From the NCBI GenBank assembly GCA_902806425.1, contig CADCWP010000355.1, positions 1 through 46,595 of the forward strand: a DNA stretch of 46,595 nt, in the 5' to 3' direction. The notes below the pieces were generated by a model. It was not told the origin of the DNA and searched no databases. It saw only the letters and a program-made list of their open reading frames with translations. Position numbers and translations under genes: made by a program. The stretch comes from an uncultured Truepera sp. Lineage in GTDB: Bacteria > Deinococcota > Deinococci > Deinococcales > Trueperaceae. Below, in pieces: positions 20,514 to 36,818 of the stretch (its first letter is position 1; the number at the start of each line of letters is the position of its first letter).

Positions 20514-21767
20514 TTATCGTAAATGTAGGCTGTCACTTGAGAAAGAAACAGGCTCGCGCCTTATCAAGCGCACGGGCACACGCGAACCGGCCTCAACAAC
20601 AGTTCCTGTAGGATTTCCCGCCCCATCGTAGGTCGTTATCAAGAGCCAAGAATCGAGACTTACCACCCGCCGCTGCGGGGCGAAGCTCTGCAAGAGGGTT
20701 TGCCGGGTGTCGCCGCTAAGACCGAGCCGCGCCACCTCCGGCCTCACCAAAAAAGCGTCGAGGTTGACGGAATCGCCGGTCGCAGTCGCGGTCAGTGAAG
20801 TGGTCCCTGCGTCTAGAGCCTGCACCTGACCGGACGTTTTCGCCAGAGCTACCGTCAGCAAGCCCTCGTTGGGCGACACGCCGGGGTCGCCCGCACCGCC
20901 CTGCGCGAGCCTGTAGGTCTGTCCGCCCAAGCTGATGTCCGCGCCCGCCGCGAACAAGTTGACGGGCTGCCGCTCGAAAACCGGCAGGACGGCGTAGCGC
21001 CCCGCTGTAGGGAGGGGGACCTCCACACTGAGTTCTCCCCCGGGTGGGAGCGTGACGTACGCCCCGCCGCTCCAATTGGCCTCCCCGTTCCAGGCACCCT
21101 CCGGCGTCACGACCTCGCCGCCCGTTAGCGTGCCGGATTCGGCCTCCACGAGTTGCCAGCTCTCGAGCTCTGCGCGCGTGGCACCCTCCGCGAAGGCCGC
21201 GTACCCCTCACCGAAAGCCCACACCGTCCGGGCGAGCCAATACGACGCGCCCGAGTCGGAAGGGTCGGGGAGTTCGACGGGCTCGGCGCTGGGGTTGAGG
21301 GTACCGTCAGGCTGCATCCACAAGACGACGTTGCCCTCCGACGGCCCCTTTGTTACAGTCTGTAAGTAGGCAACCGTTCGCAGCAGCTCGTACGCCGAAG
21401 CACGGCTGCTCTCCTCGCCGGACGCCCGCCAGTGCCGCAGGTAGACGACGGCGGCGCGCGTCAGGTCGTCGGCGTTAAAGGCCCCTTGGCTCCAGGTGTC
21501 TGTAGCCGCGTCGTAGTCGCCGCCACCCACATGCCGGTAGCCGCTTCCATCCTCGAGGGGTTCGGCGTAGGTCCAAAGCGCCAGCAGCTCGGGTTCTTCG
21601 TCAAGACGATAGGTGCTGTGACCGGCCCCTTCGGGCGGCGTGACGGGAACGGTTAAAAAGTCCAGGTGCGACAGGTTCGCAAGGGGTTCCGGGGCGGCGG
21701 CAAAAGCGGAAGCCGAACAGATCAGGGTCGTGACCAGCGCGGACAGGGTTAAGCGCCTGCACATCAT
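20514..21767 (-). CDS. Secreted carbohydrate-associated protein, unknown
   Basis: A 417-residue protein with a signal peptide (MMCRRLTLSALVTTLICSASAFAA) cleaved near residue 24. Residues about 60-200 look like an alpha/alpha-toroid sugar enzyme segment (LWTYAEPLEDGSGYRHVGGGDYD, DDLTRAAVVYLRHW, SYWLARTVWAFGEGYAAF). Residues about 210-330 resemble a beta-sandwich carbohydrate-binding module (ESGTLTGGEVV..ANWSGGAYVTLPPGGELSVEVPLPTAGRYAVLPVF in pieces). The toroid part is shorter than a whole glycoside hydrolase. The neighbouring GH130 gene supports a role in glycan use. The start has a GAGGAG ribosome site. Confidence 0.65.
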   Translation of the reverse strand: MMCRRLTLSALVTTLICSASAFAAAPEPLANLSHLDFLTVPVTPPEGAGHSTYRLDEEPELLALWTYAEPLEDGSGYRHVGGGDYDAATDTWSQGAFNADDLTRAAVVYLRHWRASGEESSRASAYELLRTVAYLQTVTKGPSEGNVVLWMQPDGTLNPSAEPVELPDPSDSGASYWLARTVWAFGEGYAAFAEGATRAELESWQLVEAESGTLTGGEVVTPEGAWNGEANWSGGAYVTLPPGGELSVEVPLPTAGRYAVLPVFERQPVNLFAAGADISLGGQTYRLAQGGAGDPGVSPNEGLLTVALAKTSGQVQALDAGTTSLTATATGDSVNLDAFLVRPEVARLGLSGDTRQTLLQSFAPQRRVVSLDSWLLITTYDGAGNPTGTVVEAGSRVPVRLIRREPVSFSSDSLHLR

Positions 21768-21834: not shown

Positions 21835-22743
21835 CTAACCGTTTTGCAGCGTCCACTCGAGCAAATCCCTGAGGTTCGCCGTCGCCAACCCCACCACCCG
21901 GTCCGCGCCGCCGTAGTAGAGGTACACGGTGCCGTCTACCACGGGGTTGGCGCAGCCGAAAACGACGTTCGGCACGTCGCCACGCCGCTCCCACGAGGTG
22001 CGGGGTTCTAAAACCGAGGTCTCGGGCCTTTTTAGAACCTTCGTGGGGTCGTCACGGTCGAGCAGCGCCACCCCCATGCAGTAGCGGTGGTCGTCGTCGT
22101 AGCCGTGATAGATGGTCAGCCAGCCCTCGTCGGTCTCGATAGGCGGCCCCCCCGCCCCGATGCGTTTGCCGTCCCACAGCCCCGGCCTCGGGCAGAGGAT
22201 TTCGGCGTGGTCTTCCCAGGTCAGCATGTCGTCGCTAAACGCCAGCCAGATGCTCGGGGGTCGCCGGTGAAAGGTCACGAAACGCCCGCCGACCTTGGCT
22301 GGAAAGAGCGCGTGGTCTTTGTTGTCTTCGTTTTTAACCACCGGCCCCAGCGTCTCCCAGGTGATGAGGTTGTCCGAAACCGCGTACATCGGGGTGACGC
22401 CCAGGGGCGCGGTGCCGGTGTCTGGAAACTGGCTGTGCTTATCGAACGCGGTGTAGGCCATGTAGAAGCGCCCACCGAGTTCGGTAACGCGCGGGTCTTC
22501 GACGCCGCGGGCGTCGAGGTCGCTGCTCGGGCTCAGCACAGGTTCTTGAAGCCGGTTCCAGTGAATCCCGTCGCGCGAGACCGCGTAGCCGATATGCGAC
22601 ACGTAGTCAAACCCTTGCGCGCGGTAGTGCATGTGAAAGAGCCCATTATGGACGACGACCGACGGGTTAAAAACGTTCACGGCCTCCCAAGCGTTGTGCG
22701 GGTTTGGAACGAGGACGGGGGCAAAGTGGCGGTGAAACTTCAC
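21835..22743 (-). CDS. GH130 family glycoside phosphorylase/hydrolase
   Basis: A 302-residue five-bladed beta-propeller of GH130. Family motifs are VFNPSVVVHNGLFHMHYRA, the catalytic-acid region RGVEDPRVTEL and GGPPIETDEGWLTIYHG. GH130 enzymes mostly phosphorolyse beta-mannosides (mannose-1-phosphate product), some hydrolyse them; which applies is not shown. No signal peptide, so cytoplasmic. The GTG start has AGGAG upstream and a TATAAG box just before. Downstream of the decayed lacI on the same strand. Confidence 0.88.
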   Translation of the reverse strand: MKFHRHFAPVLVPNPHNAWEAVNVFNPSVVVHNGLFHMHYRAQGFDYVSHIGYAVSRDGIHWNRLQEPVLSPSSDLDARGVEDPRVTELGGRFYMAYTAFDKHSQFPDTGTAPLGVTPMYAVSDNLITWETLGPVVKNEDNKDHALFPAKVGGRFVTFHRRPPSIWLAFSDDMLTWEDHAEILCPRPGLWDGKRIGAGGPPIETDEGWLTIYHGYDDDHRYCMGVALLDRDDPTKVLKRPETSVLEPRTSWERRGDVPNVVFGCANPVVDGTVYLYYGGADRVVGLATANLRDLLEWTLQNG

Positions 22744-22754
22744 GAAGAACTCCT

Positions 22755-22789
22755 TATACTGACGGAACGGTCAGCTGAGAAACGCTCAG
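22755..22789 (-). promoter_or_regulatory. GH130 promoter with overlapping dyads
   Basis: On the minus strand a TATAAG box lies immediately before the GH130 ribosome site. Directly upstream is a dyad with arms CTGAC/GTCAG (22759-22763 and 22770-22774), and beyond it a second stem CTGAG/CTCAG (22775-22789) that covers the lacI stop codon. The position fits a LacI-family operator; that it is bound by the neighbouring LacI is inference. Confidence 0.45.
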
Positions 22790-23749
22790 GGACTGCTGTG
22801 GCGGACGATCAAGGGGACGGGAAGCACCAGCGACTCCGGCGCGCCGCCAGCAAACATCTTTAGCAGTTCCCTGGCGGCGACGGTGCCGAGTTCCCGGCGC
22901 GGCACCCGCACGGTCGATAGGGGCGGGTAGCTGTAGCGGGCGAGCGCGATGTCGTCAAAGCCGACGACGGCAACGTCGCCCGGTACCTGTAGGCCCGCCT
23001 CGGCAAGCGCCCGCAACGCGCCGAAGGCGGCGGTATCGTTGGCGGCGAAAATGGCGTCAAAAGGGGTCGCGGCGAGCAGCTTCCGAGTAGCTTGGTAGCC
23101 CTCGTCCGGTCCCAGCGTACCCGCTTGCACTCTTTCAGGATGTACCTCCACGTTGTATTTGGCGTGCGCCCGCCGGTAGCCCTGGCAGCGCAGTGAGAAG
23201 TTCGGGTTGTCCGGCGTCTCGGCGATAAAGGCAACCCGGCGACGTCCGTGCGCGAGCAGGTGCTGCGTCGCCGCGTACCCACCCGCTTCGTTGGCGACGG
23301 TGACGCTGGCGACGTCCCCAGGCCAGTCGCAGTCGGCCAACACCAGCGGCACGCCGAGCTGCTGAAGCGCTTTCAGCAACTCTAGCGGCAGGTCGCAGCC
23401 GAGGGCGACGACCCCGTCACAGCGCCCACGCTGCGAAAGCCGCCGCTCCGCGCCCGCACTTCCGGCCCGCACCAGTAGCAGGCTCAGGTCGTTCGCCTCG
23501 AGATGCGCCTCGACGCCCCCCCAAGACCTCCGCGTAAAAGGCGTCTAAAAGGGCTGGCCCGTGACTTCCCGAAACGAGCACGGCGACCGTACCGGCGCGG
23601 CCCGACTTGAGCGCCTGACCCGCCGCGTCGGGGGTATAGCCGAGGCTGCGCGCAACCTCCCTGACCCGCGCCCGCGTAGCCGGGCTCACGTCCGTGTAGC
23701 CGCGGAGCGCCCTCGAGACCGACCGCTTGGCCGTTACCTTTAACCGCAT
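22786..23749 (-). pseudogene. LacI-family regulator, frameshifted and lacking its HTH start
   Basis: Two frames together make a LacI repressor. Frame one (from 23749) gives VSRALRGYTDVSPATRARV and the hinge and first core strands; frame two gives the rest of the periplasmic-binding-like core (RRVAFIAETPDN, FDAIFAANDTAAFGA, PGDVAVVGFDDIAL). They are joined by a run of seven G (23516-23522, minus strand); six would keep the frame and give LGGVEAHLEAN. The first eight codons (MRLKVTAK) are antisense to the histidine kinase opposite, and about six residues of the HTH are missing, so DNA binding is lost even if the frame is restored. Confidence 0.85.
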
Positions 23750-24433
23750 GTCTAAAGCGCTAGAGACTTACGAGCACGAACGGAGGGCGATGGTCGCCGA
23801 CATCGCCCACGAACTCCAGACGCCGCTGACCGCCTTGCAGATGCGGCTCGAGGCCATTCAGGATGGGCTCGTCCCGCTTACGGACACGCAAGTCGAGCAT
23901 CTCCTGACCCAGACGGGTGTGCTCTCGAGGCTCGTCGAGGACCTGCGGACGCTTTCTCTGGCCGACGCGGGCCGCTTGACCCTGCATCGGCAACCGACCG
24001 ACCTCAGTGAGCTCGCCGCCGAGGTCGTAGAGGCTTTTGCCGAGCGGGTACAGCAGCGGGGGGTCGCGCTCAGGCTCCTAGCCAAACCGGTTACGGCCAC
24101 AGTCAACCAGACCCGGCTGATGCAGGTACTCGACCACCTCCTCGACAACGCCCTGCGCGTGACCTCGGCGGGGGCGAGGTGCACCTAAGCGTTCGGGGAG
24201 ACCAAACCAACGTGTGGTTGGAGGTTCACGACAGCGGCCCCGGCATCCCCGAGGACGAACTGCCCAGTATCTTCGAGCGGTTTGTGCAGGGCAAGGACAC
24301 AAAGGGCTCCTCCGGTTTGGGCCTCGCCATCGTCGACGCACTTGTCAAGCTGCACGGCGGCAGCCTGCGGGTAACCAACCGAGCTGAGGGCGGGGCGTCG
24401 TTTCAGGTAAGCTTGCCCGTGCGGATTGCCTAA
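23727..24433 (+). pseudogene. Sensor histidine kinase fragment, 5'-truncated and frameshifted
   Basis: The frame opens inside a HAMP domain (LAVTFNRMSKALE) and continues with the H-box IAHELQTPL, the N-box LLDNALRV and, after a frameshift near 24172, DSGPGI, FERF and GSSGLGLAI (ATPase). The shift lies in a run of five G where six would restore SAGGEVHLSV. Sensor and membrane segments are absent: upstream sequence belongs to the opposite-strand lacI. It resembles BaeS-type kinases. No response regulator is adjacent. Confidence 0.85.
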
Positions 24434-30254: not shown

Positions 30255-30878
30255 TTAATAGGAGCGCAAGTCGGGTTTGGCCTCGAGGTGCGCGGTGTCG
30301 TTGACGCTTAGGAGCTGGACCCGCTCCCCGGTCAGTCGCAAACGGGTCACGCCGGTATTGCTCGCGGTAAAACGCCAGCTCTGCACGCCGTCAACGCCGA
30401 CGATGTGGTGCAGAAGCGCGAAGATAACGCCGCCGTGCGTTACCGCCGCCACTTTGCCCGAATCGGGCAGGCTTCTCAGCCACGCCACGGCCCGCTTACC
30501 TAGGTCGCGGTAGTTCTCGCCACCGGGCGGCCGGACGTTTAGAAAATCCTGCTGCATAGCCGCGTAGACGTCCCTAAGCTCGCCCACCAGCTCAGCGCCG
30601 AGCTGGCCCTCGAGGTCGCCGCGCGCGATCTCCCGGAGCCGAATGTCAAAGCTCAGCTCACGACCGGGAAAAACGAATTCAGCCGTCTGCACCGCCCTTT
30701 TGAGGTCGGAGCAGTAAACCGTAGCGAACGCTTCACCCAGCAACCGTGCACCTAGCTGCCGCGCCTGACGCTCACCGAGGTCGCTGAGCGGGTTGTGCTG
30801 CTGCCCCTGGATGCGGCGCTCCGCGTTCCAGACCGTCTCGCCGTGCCGGATGAGCCACAGCTCCAGATGTTCAGCCAT
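30255..30878 (-). CDS. Histidine phosphatase, copy 3
   Basis: A 207-residue paralog of its neighbours: LIRHGETVWNAERRIQGQ at the N-terminus, DIRLREIARGDLEGQ, and AVTHGGVIFALLHH with the second histidine; ends VNDTAHLEAKP. It starts inside the end of copy 2 (8-base overlap), so translation is likely coupled. Closest in length to copy 1. Confidence 0.92.
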   Translation of the reverse strand: MAEHLELWLIRHGETVWNAERRIQGQQHNPLSDLGERQARQLGARLLGEAFATVYCSDLKRAVQTAEFVFPGRELSFDIRLREIARGDLEGQLGAELVGELRDVYAAMQQDFLNVRPPGGENYRDLGKRAVAWLRSLPDSGKVAAVTHGGVIFALLHHIVGVDGVQSWRFTASNTGVTRLRLTGERVQLLSVNDTAHLEAKPDLRSY

Positions 30879-31483
30879 GTGTTCCGCTTAAATGCACTGT
30901 GTCACCGAAGACCCCAAGAACGGCCTGCCCGTTGTGAAGCGTAAGCCGTGTGATGCTGGTATTACCCAAACGAGCGCGCCAGTTGCGTGCTCTGGGGTCA
31001 GCAGTCAATGAAAAGACTGCACACCGAATCGTGCCTCCATGAGTAAAGGCAACCATGCGTCCGGCAGGAGGTAACGACTTCAACCAGGAGATGACACGCA
31101 CCTCCAGGTCACGCCAAGATTCCCCTTGGGGGATGGGCACAGGGCGTAAGTTGTCACGGCACGCCCATAAGGCTTGGCGATCCGCTTCACCAAAATCATG
31201 TTTGTTTTCCCCCTCGAGCGACCCATAGGCCATCTCCCTCAAGCGTCTATAAGAGAATGGCTCGTCCCTCAAAGACAGCGCGCGCCGTTTCCTGAGCGCG
31301 ACTTAGGTCCGAGCTGTAGATAACGTCGAAGGCGTGCCGATCTAATCGAGCCTTAAGGCGCTGTGCTTGCGTACGGCCAAATTCGCCTAGCGCGACATCT
31401 GTCTGACCATAAAGACGCCCTGTCCCGTGCCACTTGGTAGCACCGTGGCGAATGACCCAAAGCTCCAAGCTACGACTCGCCAT
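30871..31483 (-). pseudogene. Histidine phosphatase, copy 2, frameshifted
   Basis: The first frame (from 31483) gives LELWVIRHGATKWHG through AVFEGRAILL and then a stop. The second frame resumes RRLREMAYGSLEGEN and holds FTHGGTIRCAVF and a GDTVHL end. Between the two matching points there are 13 bases where the paralogs have 15, so a 2-base deletion near 31250 is the simplest cause. Both catalytic halves are otherwise intact, so decay is recent or the indel is a sequence error. It overlaps copy 1 by 14 bases. Confidence 0.85.
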
Positions 31484-33232: not shown

Positions 33233-33489
33233 TGTTATCTTGGTAACGACGCTTACCCAGCGGGAAGAGACGTGGTGATTCCCGAAAAACGGTGAGATAG
33301 TGGCCTGAAAGTTTTTGTCTGAGCAGAGTGATAGTGTGACCCTGACATGACCATAACCCCTGATTCAGATTTACGATGATGACCGGAAATCGCTGCACGC
33401 AAGCCTCCTCGGGCCTTGTGCGACTCGAGGGCGGCAAAGCGCAACCGTACGGCTGCCTTCACCGGCCTTGTCCTCGCAAGCGGTGTTTA

Positions 33490-33600
33490 GGCGCGGGGGC
33501 TGGTAATCGGGCTCGCTGACATAGCTTACCGTTGCGGGACAGCGCCGGACTCTCACCGGACTTCCCCAACCACTGCGCTAGCTGAGCTTACGGCTCAGGT
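33490..33600 (-). promoter_or_regulatory. Cobalamin riboswitch
   Basis: The minus strand carries the conserved core of the B12 aptamer: GGGGAAGTCCGGTGAGAGTC, followed by CGGCGCTGTCCCGCAACGGT, and then GAGCCCGATTACCAGCC on the 3' side. A strong stem CTGAGC/GCTCAG lies at the 5' side (33582-33598). The element lies directly after the fadD-like gene and reads toward the FecCD permease about 330 bases away. I cannot define the expression platform; a CCTCG/CGAGG stem lies near 33400-33430. Confidence 0.88.
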
Positions 33601-33640: not shown

Positions 33641-35244
33641 TTACGGCCGAGTAGACACCTCTTGCCCACCGACCTGCTGCTCGGCGGCGCGCAGCTCACG
33701 GCGCAAAATCTTGCCCGTAGCGTTCATCGGCAGGCTGTCCACGATAGAGAGAGCGCGCGGGTATTTGTAGGCGGCCAAACACCCTTTACTCCACGCGCGC
33801 AACTCCGCTGCGGTGAGGCTCGAGCCTGCCTGCGTCACCACGAACGCCTTTATCTCCTCCCCGTACTCCTCATCCGGCACCCCGACAACCGCCGCTAAAG
33901 ACACCTCGGGGTGCGTCATCAACACCTCTTCGACCTCGCGTGGGTAGACGTTGAAGCCGCCCCTGATGATCATGTCCTTGAGCCGGTCGACGACCGTCAC
34001 GTAGCCTTCATGGTCCATGGTGCCGATGTCGCCGGTGTGAAACCAGCCGCCCCGCAACGCCTCGGCAGTCGCCTCGGCTCGCCCGTAGTAACCTTTCATG
34101 ACGTTGTGACCGCGTAAGGCGATCTCCCCGGCTTCACCGGCGTTCAGCACCCGGTCGTCGTCTCCGACGACCCTGACCTCGACGCCGAAGACTGCCTGAC
34201 CGACCGTGCCGACCTTGCGTTCGCGGTCGTGGTGTTAAAGCACGCGACCGGGCTCGTCTCGGAAAGGCCGTAGCCCTCTAGAATCGCCACCGAAAACACC
34301 TCTTCAAAGCGCCTCAAGAGCTCAACGGGCATCGCCGACCCACCGCTCAGACAGGCTTTGAGCTTTCCTTTTAAGGCGGCAAAATCGTCCGCTGAAACGT
34401 CTCTAGCGGCATTTAAGAGGCCCCAATACATCGTCGGTACACCCGCAAACGTCGTCACCCCGCAGCTTGTCATAGCCCTCAGTGCGTCCTCGGCGGCGAA
34501 GCGGGGCAGCAGCACGACCTGTCCGCCGAGGTAGAACATCGTGTTCATCACACACGTCTGACCGAACACGTGAAAGAGGGGTAGCGCGCCCAGGAAAACT
34601 TGGTCTTTTTGCTCCATACCGCCGATATGCACTAGCCGTGAGCTGACGACCGCGTTCATGACCATGTTGAGGTGCGTCAACTCAGCCCCTTTGGGCTTGC
34701 CGGTGGTGCCGGAGGTGTAGAGGATGACCGCCGTGTCCTCCCCTCCCTGCGGCACGAGGTCAAACGCACCCGCGTGACGCTGCATAATCTGCCCGAACGT
34801 CACCGCACCCTCGAGCGGGCTCGGCGCGGCGGTATCCGCCGTCATCACGACCAGATGCTGGCACCCCGGCGCGTCCCCAAAACCCGCTGCCCCAGCCTGC
34901 GCCAGCGGCAGCTCAGGGGTACCCTCGAAGACGAAATAGGCTTTAGCATCCGAGTCTTGAAGGTGATAGGCGATTTCGGCGGGTTTAAGAAGGACGTTAA
35001 GCGGCACGACGACCATTCCGGCGCGCAGGACGCCGTAGTAGACGGCTGGAAAAAAGGGCAGGTTGGGGCAGCTCAGCGCGACCTTATCGCCGACCTCCAA
35101 CCCCTGCGCGACCAGATAACGGGCTACGGCGCTCGCCATGGCGTCGAGTTGACCGTAGGAGACGGTGCGCTCACCGAGACGTAAGGCGGTACGCTCCGGG
35201 GTGACGCGGGCGTGTTCAAGGATAAACGACGCGAGGCTCAGCAT
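33641..35244 (-). pseudogene. Long-chain acyl-CoA synthetase (FadD-like), frameshifted
   Basis: The gene starts at ATG 35244 behind a TTGGAGGA ribosome site. The AMP-binding motif YTSGTTGKPKGAEL and the A5-type motif GYGLSETSP are present in the first frame. After FNTTTANA the frame shifts (near 34218), and the second frame continues KVGTVGQAVFGVEVRVVGDD, HTGDIG, DRLKDMIIRGG and MNATGKILRREL (catalytic lysine). One missing base joins them. All motifs survive, so the break is recent or an error. It would activate fatty acids with ATP and CoA. Confidence 0.85.
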
Positions 35245-36170
35245 AAAATCCTCCAAATCGGTGTTGTGGAGGCCAGTGTAGCGCATACAGCAGGTGTCAA
35301 AGACCGTCTCACTGCGTTCAGAGCTGGTCAAACTTCAAGGCAGGCTGTCCCTAGTACCGTTACACAATGATGCCTGTAGCTGCTAGGTCGTTAAGTGCTA
35401 TAAAAATCCAAAAAAGGTTCGTTCAAGAGGACGCGACCCCAAAACAACGACTTTCTAAACGCCGAGTTGGTCGGGTGTAAATTGGAGTGTGCGCCTCACA
35501 CGTAGTTACAGCGAGGTGCCCGTAGACACCGAGCTACACGTTACTAGCACAGCTTAAAGGTGTAGCTAAGATTCACGTACAGATTTGCGCCTGCTGATGA
35601 GCCTAAAAGCCACCTACTCAACCGTTTTTCTAAAGCTGTGTCTCCGATCTGCTGCGCTCGGTTTAGCAGGTCTCATCTGGTTTGAGCCGAAGTCAGTCTG
35701 CGCTGAACTGTCGAGGACATACTTTAGGTGATGATACCTTCGTTCAACCAATTCAGTATTTATTGAAACCGCTAGTTAAAGCGAAAAGGAACAACATGCA
35801 GCAACGTTTGAGTACACCTCGTTACTAAAAGCTCTCGCAGCGCGTCGGCACGGCAAAGTACGGTAAAGAACTACCCTCATGAGGCACTCGGGCGTCCAGT
35901 CGAATGCTTTTTATCCTCTTCTATATTCTGTTTGGTCTACACTTAGCGCAGCTCAACCTCTTGAGCGCACCCCGAGCAGAGCGGTTCGGGGTGTTTTTAA
36001 TAGCGGCTGTGGGCGCGGCTCTACGAAGCAAGCTGCCGAGCCCAAACTTGAAGCGTTTTGCAGGGATGTGCAGGCGAGCGTTGGTCTACAAGCAACTCGC
36101 TGTACACCTACACTTATAACTGCCGACCCTGAAGTCGTCGGCCCGGCTCCGAACAAGGCGTTTCACCCGC
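35245..36170. other. Gene-poor gap of about 925 bases
   Basis: The region is AT-richer than its neighbours. Frames on both strands are short and resemble nothing. A ten-codon frame (35796-35828, MQQRLSTPRY) has an AAAGGA site, and a strong plus-strand terminator stands at 35968-35998, so something is transcribed rightward here, perhaps a small RNA. The fadD-like promoter must lie at its left end. Confidence 0.5.
35968..35998 (+). terminator. Strong intrinsic terminator without a matching gene
   Basis: A perfect eight-pair stem CACCCCGA/TCGGGGTG (35968-35975 and 35986-35993) with a ten-base loop is followed by TTTTTAA. It points rightward; no plausible protein gene precedes it within about 600 bases. 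Confidence 0.8.
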
Positions 36171-36818
36171 TTACGCTACCCTGTAGCTATAGTCGAGTAG
36201 CCTCTGCGGCTCGAAGCTGTAGCGCCCTCTCGTCCCGCTGACGACGCCCTGAGCGCGCATCTCACCGAGGAGCGCGGTGGTCGTTTCTCTCGCGGCCCCG
36301 ACAAGCGCCGCCAAGGTGTCGTGGGTGAGCGGCAAGGTAAGATGCGTCCGCCCTGCCTCTGAGGTGTGACCGAAACGCTGCCCAAGGCGTAGCAGCGTCC
36401 TGGCGAGCCGCGCCGAGACCGGCAGGTCGGTGTCCTCAAGCGCCTCCCTGATACGCCCGAGCTGTTCGCCGGTTGCCCCGAGGAGTTCGGCGCTGAGCGT
36501 ATTCGCCTTAGCTTTCGCCACCATGCTGACGCTGACCTTCGCCGAGAGCGCCTCAGCTCGCTCGCCGTAAAAAGGGGCCGCCGTAAGCGCGCCGAGGTAG
36601 TCGCCGGGGCCTACAAGCTGGGTGATGCGTTCGCGCCCGCTGGCCAGTTCGAGGCTCAGCTTCAGGAGCCCCTCTTCGACGCGGTAGAAACTGACGGCTT
36701 CATCTTGAGCGTGATACAAGACGTCGCCTTTACCCAGCTCCCGGCGCGGCGCGTCGGGTAGGGGCAGGGGTGGAGGGCCGCTTTGGGGCGCTGCAAAACT
36801 GCCTAAACCTGGAGTCAT
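36171..36818 (-). CDS. Crp/Fnr-family transcriptional regulator
   Basis: A 215-residue protein: an N-terminal cyclic-nucleotide-binding-like barrel (LGKGDVLYHAQDEAVSFYRVEEG, GDYLGAL) and a C-terminal winged HTH (LTHDTLAALVGAARETTTALLGEMRAQG). No cysteines suggest an iron-sulfur cluster, so it is Crp-like rather than Fnr-like. The target is unknown. The ATG lies five bases behind TAAGAT (minus strand), a leaderless arrangement. It is 52 bases downstream of pfkA on the same strand. Confidence 0.9.
   Translation of the reverse strand: MTPGLGSFAAPQSGPPPLPLPDAPRRELGKGDVLYHAQDEAVSFYRVEEGLLKLSLELASGRERITQLVGPGDYLGALTAAPFYGERAEALSAKVSVSMVAKAKANTLSAELLGATGEQLGRIREALEDTDLPVSARLARTLLRLGQRFGHTSEAGRTHLTLPLTHDTLAALVGAARETTTALLGEMRAQGVVSGTRGRYSFEPQRLLDYSYRVA

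Follow-up and report, generated by a model that had tools for sequence, protein, structure and literature searches.

In Truepera radiovictrix, the sole genome of the same genus compared (G001; one contig, 3,260,398 bp), a sugar operon at locus L107 carries on one strand, in order, the genes for an SBP, two permeases, a LacI repressor with a complete HTH, a GH130 protein and a 720-aa protein. The operon also occurs in five other members of the family (G005, G010, G014, G020 and G022), where lacI precedes the transporter genes; together with T. radiovictrix, these made up the six genomes of the operon comparison. The second system relevant here is the pair of an OmpR-type response regulator and a HAMP-containing sensor kinase. 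Seven intact kinases related to the one studied were aligned, the corresponding regulator-kinase pairs being located at L169 to L175. The kinases are 371 to 433 aa long with a HAMP-HisKA-HATPase architecture, and in 7/7 cases a response regulator directly precedes the kinase. The regulators were OmpR-type where checked, and the domains of two of those beside the kinases were confirmed.

The window, that is, the whole stretch of 46,595 nucleotides that was analyzed, is contig C355 of an uncultured Truepera assembly (G000) comprising 376 contigs and 3.84 Mb, with 91.9% completeness. Within it, a lacI gene and a histidine kinase gene, abutting head to head, were found to be 5'-truncated at the same point, as the original prediction had stated, with similarity to lacI ending at 23721 and similarity to kinases starting at 23712-23724. 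The join is considered to be the scar of a real chromosomal rearrangement in a mannoside operon undergoing decay, with a probability of roughly 0.7, and deletion is the simplest form that the rearrangement could have taken.

Losses from the sugar operon

The lacI, GH130 and 720-aa protein genes of the window are orthologous to those of T. radiovictrix and the other family members and follow the T. radiovictrix order. The intact GH130 gene (21835 to 22743, minus strand; Pfam E = 7e-69) lies directly downstream of lacI, as in T. radiovictrix, and its product shares 78% amino acid identity with the T. radiovictrix counterpart. It is beta-1,2-mannobiose phosphorylase-like, this being its best NCBIfam match, under the cut-off of that family. 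At the DNA level, the window matched L107 over GH130 and lacI with 73% identity, the match ending at 23721.

Unlike the operons of the six relatives, the window contains neither the SBP nor either permease, its lacI is headless, and its counterpart of the 720-aa protein has only 417 aa (20514 to 21767, minus strand, by comparison with L107:6520-8682). About 290 codons are gone in frame from the latter gene, near 21162-21167, where the hexamer CTCGAG sits. The SBP was absent from the whole assembly at E<=1e-20, and a search with the DNA that in T. radiovictrix reaches from the SBP to the start of lacI returned only weak partial permease-type DNA matches and no candidates; in an assembly of this fragmentation and completeness, the absence of a gene falls short of proof. 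With the transporter and the repressor lost and the 720-aa protein shortened, the locus points to a mannoside-use operon in decay, the substrate being deduced from GH130. The GH130 gene itself survives with no local repressor or transporter.

No Pfam or NCBIfam match was obtained for the 720-aa operon protein, which perhaps represents an undescribed glycoside-active family. Its sequence is conserved at ∼32 to 37% across five further genera.

The lacI and kinase remnants

The lacI remnant (22786 to 23721, minus strand), delimited by Pfam and by identity to T. radiovictrix, consists of half the recognition helix, helix 3, the hinge and the complete ligand-binding domain. In the 110-aa ORF at 23749-23417 (minus strand), the HTH profile PF00356 was matched only from position 15 of 46 (15 to 46), whereas the T. 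radiovictrix orthologue matched in full (1 to 46), which confirms the proposed 5' truncation. The first HTH helix had been reported missing, and helix 1 is indeed gone, but the loss goes further, through the turn and halfway into recognition helix 2 (VTIREVAAAAGVSIST, which precedes VSRALRGY in T. radiovictrix). The first eight codons of the lacI frame had also been described as antisense to the kinase; their coordinates (23749-23726) are real, but they have no lacI similarity and are a mechanical extension of the ORF. The ligand domain PF13377 was found in a second reading frame (E = 1.8e-36), in which the ligand-binding domain runs on as far as 22786. The frame changes at a C7 run (23516-23522), although a sequencing error is possible there. 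The two pieces share 75% and 63% amino acid identity with the T. radiovictrix LacI, and the read-through match is 61%. The complete N-terminal HTH (PF00356) of a functional LacI repressor is missing, and since the remnant is unable to bind DNA in the usual way, it is most likely non-functional.

Substitution ratios for lacI were 0.40 and 0.55 versus 0.40 for GH130. These values are at most suggestive of relaxed selection on lacI and give no strong evidence of it. A search of genome contigs for a close copy of the locus, using the lacI ligand domain, found none and returned only relatives at ∼35 to 46% identity, mostly from other phyla, with a Deinococcales bin among the matches at 35%.

The kinase remnant (23712 to 24433, plus strand) was defined by Pfam and by alignment with the seven intact kinases and comprises the end of HAMP, HisKA and HATPase_c. 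HisKA was detected in 23727-24188 (plus strand; PF00512, E = 1.6e-12) and HATPase_c in 24179-24433 (plus strand; PF02518, E = 7e-21), so that both domains of a sensor kinase are present, across two different frames. The change of frame occurs at a G5 run (24170-24174). These domains are ∼43 to 57% identical to those of full-length kinases from the family and from the same assembly. In contrast to the OmpR-type pairs, the window kinase is frameshifted, has no regulator, sensor or membrane segments, and retains only the last residues of HAMP; the alignment thereby upheld the description of a kinase without sensor, membrane helices or start. No cognate response regulator was found beside it. Contigs C280 and C364 of the assembly each carry a complete regulator-kinase pair of the same subfamily. 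Orphan regulators of this subfamily were not found in the assembly, its regulators being paired with their own kinases or belonging to other subfamilies. With neither sensor nor partner, the kinase remnant is most likely non-functional.

Both genes were originally said to have gained frameshifts after the deletion. The frameshifts exist, at the C7 and G5 runs, but their order in time was unsupported: because two unrelated genes of the contig are also shifted, the lacI and kinase frameshifts do not date the event, and they may be sequencing errors or belong to an indel background that affects the sequence generally. The remnants still look gene-like in codon-position GC and in substitution patterns; therefore, either they began to decay recently or not all of the frameshifts are genuine.

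Several other features were recorded in the window. Frameshifts split an AMP-binding enzyme gene (33641-35331) near 34150 and a histidine phosphatase gene (30871-31470) near 31270, the latter being flanked on both sides by further histidine phosphatase-like genes of the same orientation. A cobalamin riboswitch (33481-33589, minus strand) lies upstream of a FecCD-type transporter gene, and ∼840 bp at 35331-36171 carry no recognisable coding frame.

The junction sequence

The DNA similarity of lacI to T. radiovictrix ends at 23721, and kinase similarity starts at 23712-23724. The breakpoint, originally mapped to 23722-23727, was therefore placed slightly to the left, at 23712-23721. On the kinase side, the alignment with relatives (ETAxL, or CTCGAG encoding Leu-Glu in G018) extends to 23712-23715. 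The window sequence ETDRLAVTFNRM aligns to the HAMP end of the seven kinases, for which relatives read ETAELARNFNQM and ETARLSEHFNQM, while G018 reads LEAKALTDNFNQM and shares CTCGAG with the window. The truncation of lacI and the kinase at one point is well beyond chance, because the matches to two strong domain families both break off no more than ∼10 bp from it. A consensus scan found no promoters at the join.

The junction CTCGAGACCG is compatible with both sides, being readable either as Val-Ser-Arg codons of lacI on the minus strand or as Leu-Glu-Thr codons of the kinase on the plus strand. Since the lacI side and the kinase side both claim 23712-23721, it may represent a microhomology 7 to 10 bp long, as read from present-day relatives rather than from the parent sequences. 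In Salmonella, a microhomology of >=8 bp was the deduced cut-off for true spontaneous deletion junctions (PMC3411829). As in pseudogenes produced by short-microhomology deletion, two genes in the window are truncated at one point with <=10 bp shared; in contrast to those cases, the event is deduced from one assembly, and the ancestral arrangement was seen in no relative.

No hexamer is more over-represented in the window than CTCGAG, for which a second-order Markov model predicts 23.8 copies whereas 75 occur, most of them in frame as Leu-Glu codons. The motif is present at both joins, at 23712 and at 21162, the second of which was placed by protein alignment only, and ∼2% of positions fall within 3 nt of a copy. 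The coincidence of the two joins with a motif picked after the fact is suggestive, a lead rather than a result. That this abundant palindrome serves as a recurrent microhomology driving gene loss in the family of Truepera is very doubtful. CTCGAG was enriched in every stretch examined from the family and the order (L199, L171, L175, L107 and L164-L174), reaching 13-fold in L173 (G018). Two other hexamers, CGATCG (0 seen versus 29 expected) and CTGCAG (0 versus 13), are missing from the window and almost missing from three other stretches of the same assembly; CTGCAG is not avoided in T. radiovictrix. Their absence looks like a signature of restriction avoidance.

Origin of the scar

The ancestor would have carried a T. 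radiovictrix-like operon in the order SBP-permease-permease-lacI-GH130-(720-aa protein). Breaks would then have occurred within the lacI HTH and, in an OmpR-type sensor kinase gene, where HAMP ends, and the two broken ends would have been joined. On the lacI side, the locus would have lost the start of the gene and the entire ABC transporter, and on the kinase side the response regulator and the sensor-encoding half. The simplest single event would be a deletion of at least ∼4.4 kb, joined via the 7- to 10-bp microhomology (CTCGAGACCG); we infer the single event, the deletion mechanism and the microhomology alike. Rearrangement with loss is the simplest reading because the two 5' truncations coincide and the missing partners of the genes were not found in the assembly. 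As the transporter is absent and no orphan regulator was found, sequence appears to have been lost or moved on both sides.

A single deletion would need both loci to have once been close and head-to-head, an order that we infer. Relatives were searched for a divergent lacI and intact kinase, and none was present in the six operons: neither a kinase nor a response regulator adjoins lacI in any of them (0/6), and the upstream neighbor in T. radiovictrix is a same-strand permease. The original view of lacI and the kinase as divergent neighbors was thus unsupported, and because a kinase lies beside the operon in no relative, a single deletion is not demonstrable. The best T. radiovictrix match to the kinase reached 34% identity, which does not amount to a close copy, and on this evidence a deletion would look the same as an inversion or a translocation with loss.

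An inversion or translocation, in which two far-apart breaks, one in lacI and one in the kinase, were joined, with the reciprocal halves located elsewhere or later lost, is unlikely yet deserves consideration. Gene order is poorly conserved between the window assembly and T. radiovictrix, in which the window genes map to scattered positions, and the assembly's copy of the T. radiovictrix transporter neighbor lies on contig C336 in an unrelated setting. Rearrangement rates are also elevated in radiation-resistant bacteria, Truepera being among the species analyzed (PMC5378121). However, none of the reciprocal halves, namely the transporter, the start of lacI, and the response regulator together with the first part of the kinase, turned up in the assembly. 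The copy of the T. radiovictrix upstream neighbor on contig C336 was considered as the site of a reciprocal junction and rejected, as unrelated genes were found near it. Matches to the T. radiovictrix downstream flank were spread over several contigs of the assembly.

Joining of two unrelated pieces in the contig by an assembly or binning artefact is distinctly improbable. The assembly is fragmented, and four frameshifted genes on one contig suggest imperfect sequence, but the join shares at most ∼10 bp and its 21-mer occurs once in the assembly, which makes a misjoin through a shared k-mer unlikely. Furthermore, G+C is continuous through the join, the missing parts are on no other contig, and the second loss in the same operon has a clean in-frame join. 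That the short lacI and kinase are conserved and functional, for instance with lacI encoding a sugar sensor deficient in DNA binding and the kinase acting in soluble form, is highly implausible despite their still gene-like codon composition, since both are frameshifted, the cognate regulator was not found, and every relative examined has full-length and never short forms.

The scar is ordinary gene loss and involves no new mechanism. Caution is warranted in annotation, where remnants of this type may pass for a genuine repressor and a genuine kinase. For Truepera, the locus represents a clear case of operon decay, in which a mannoside-use operon has lost its transporter and repressor and has kept the phosphorylase.
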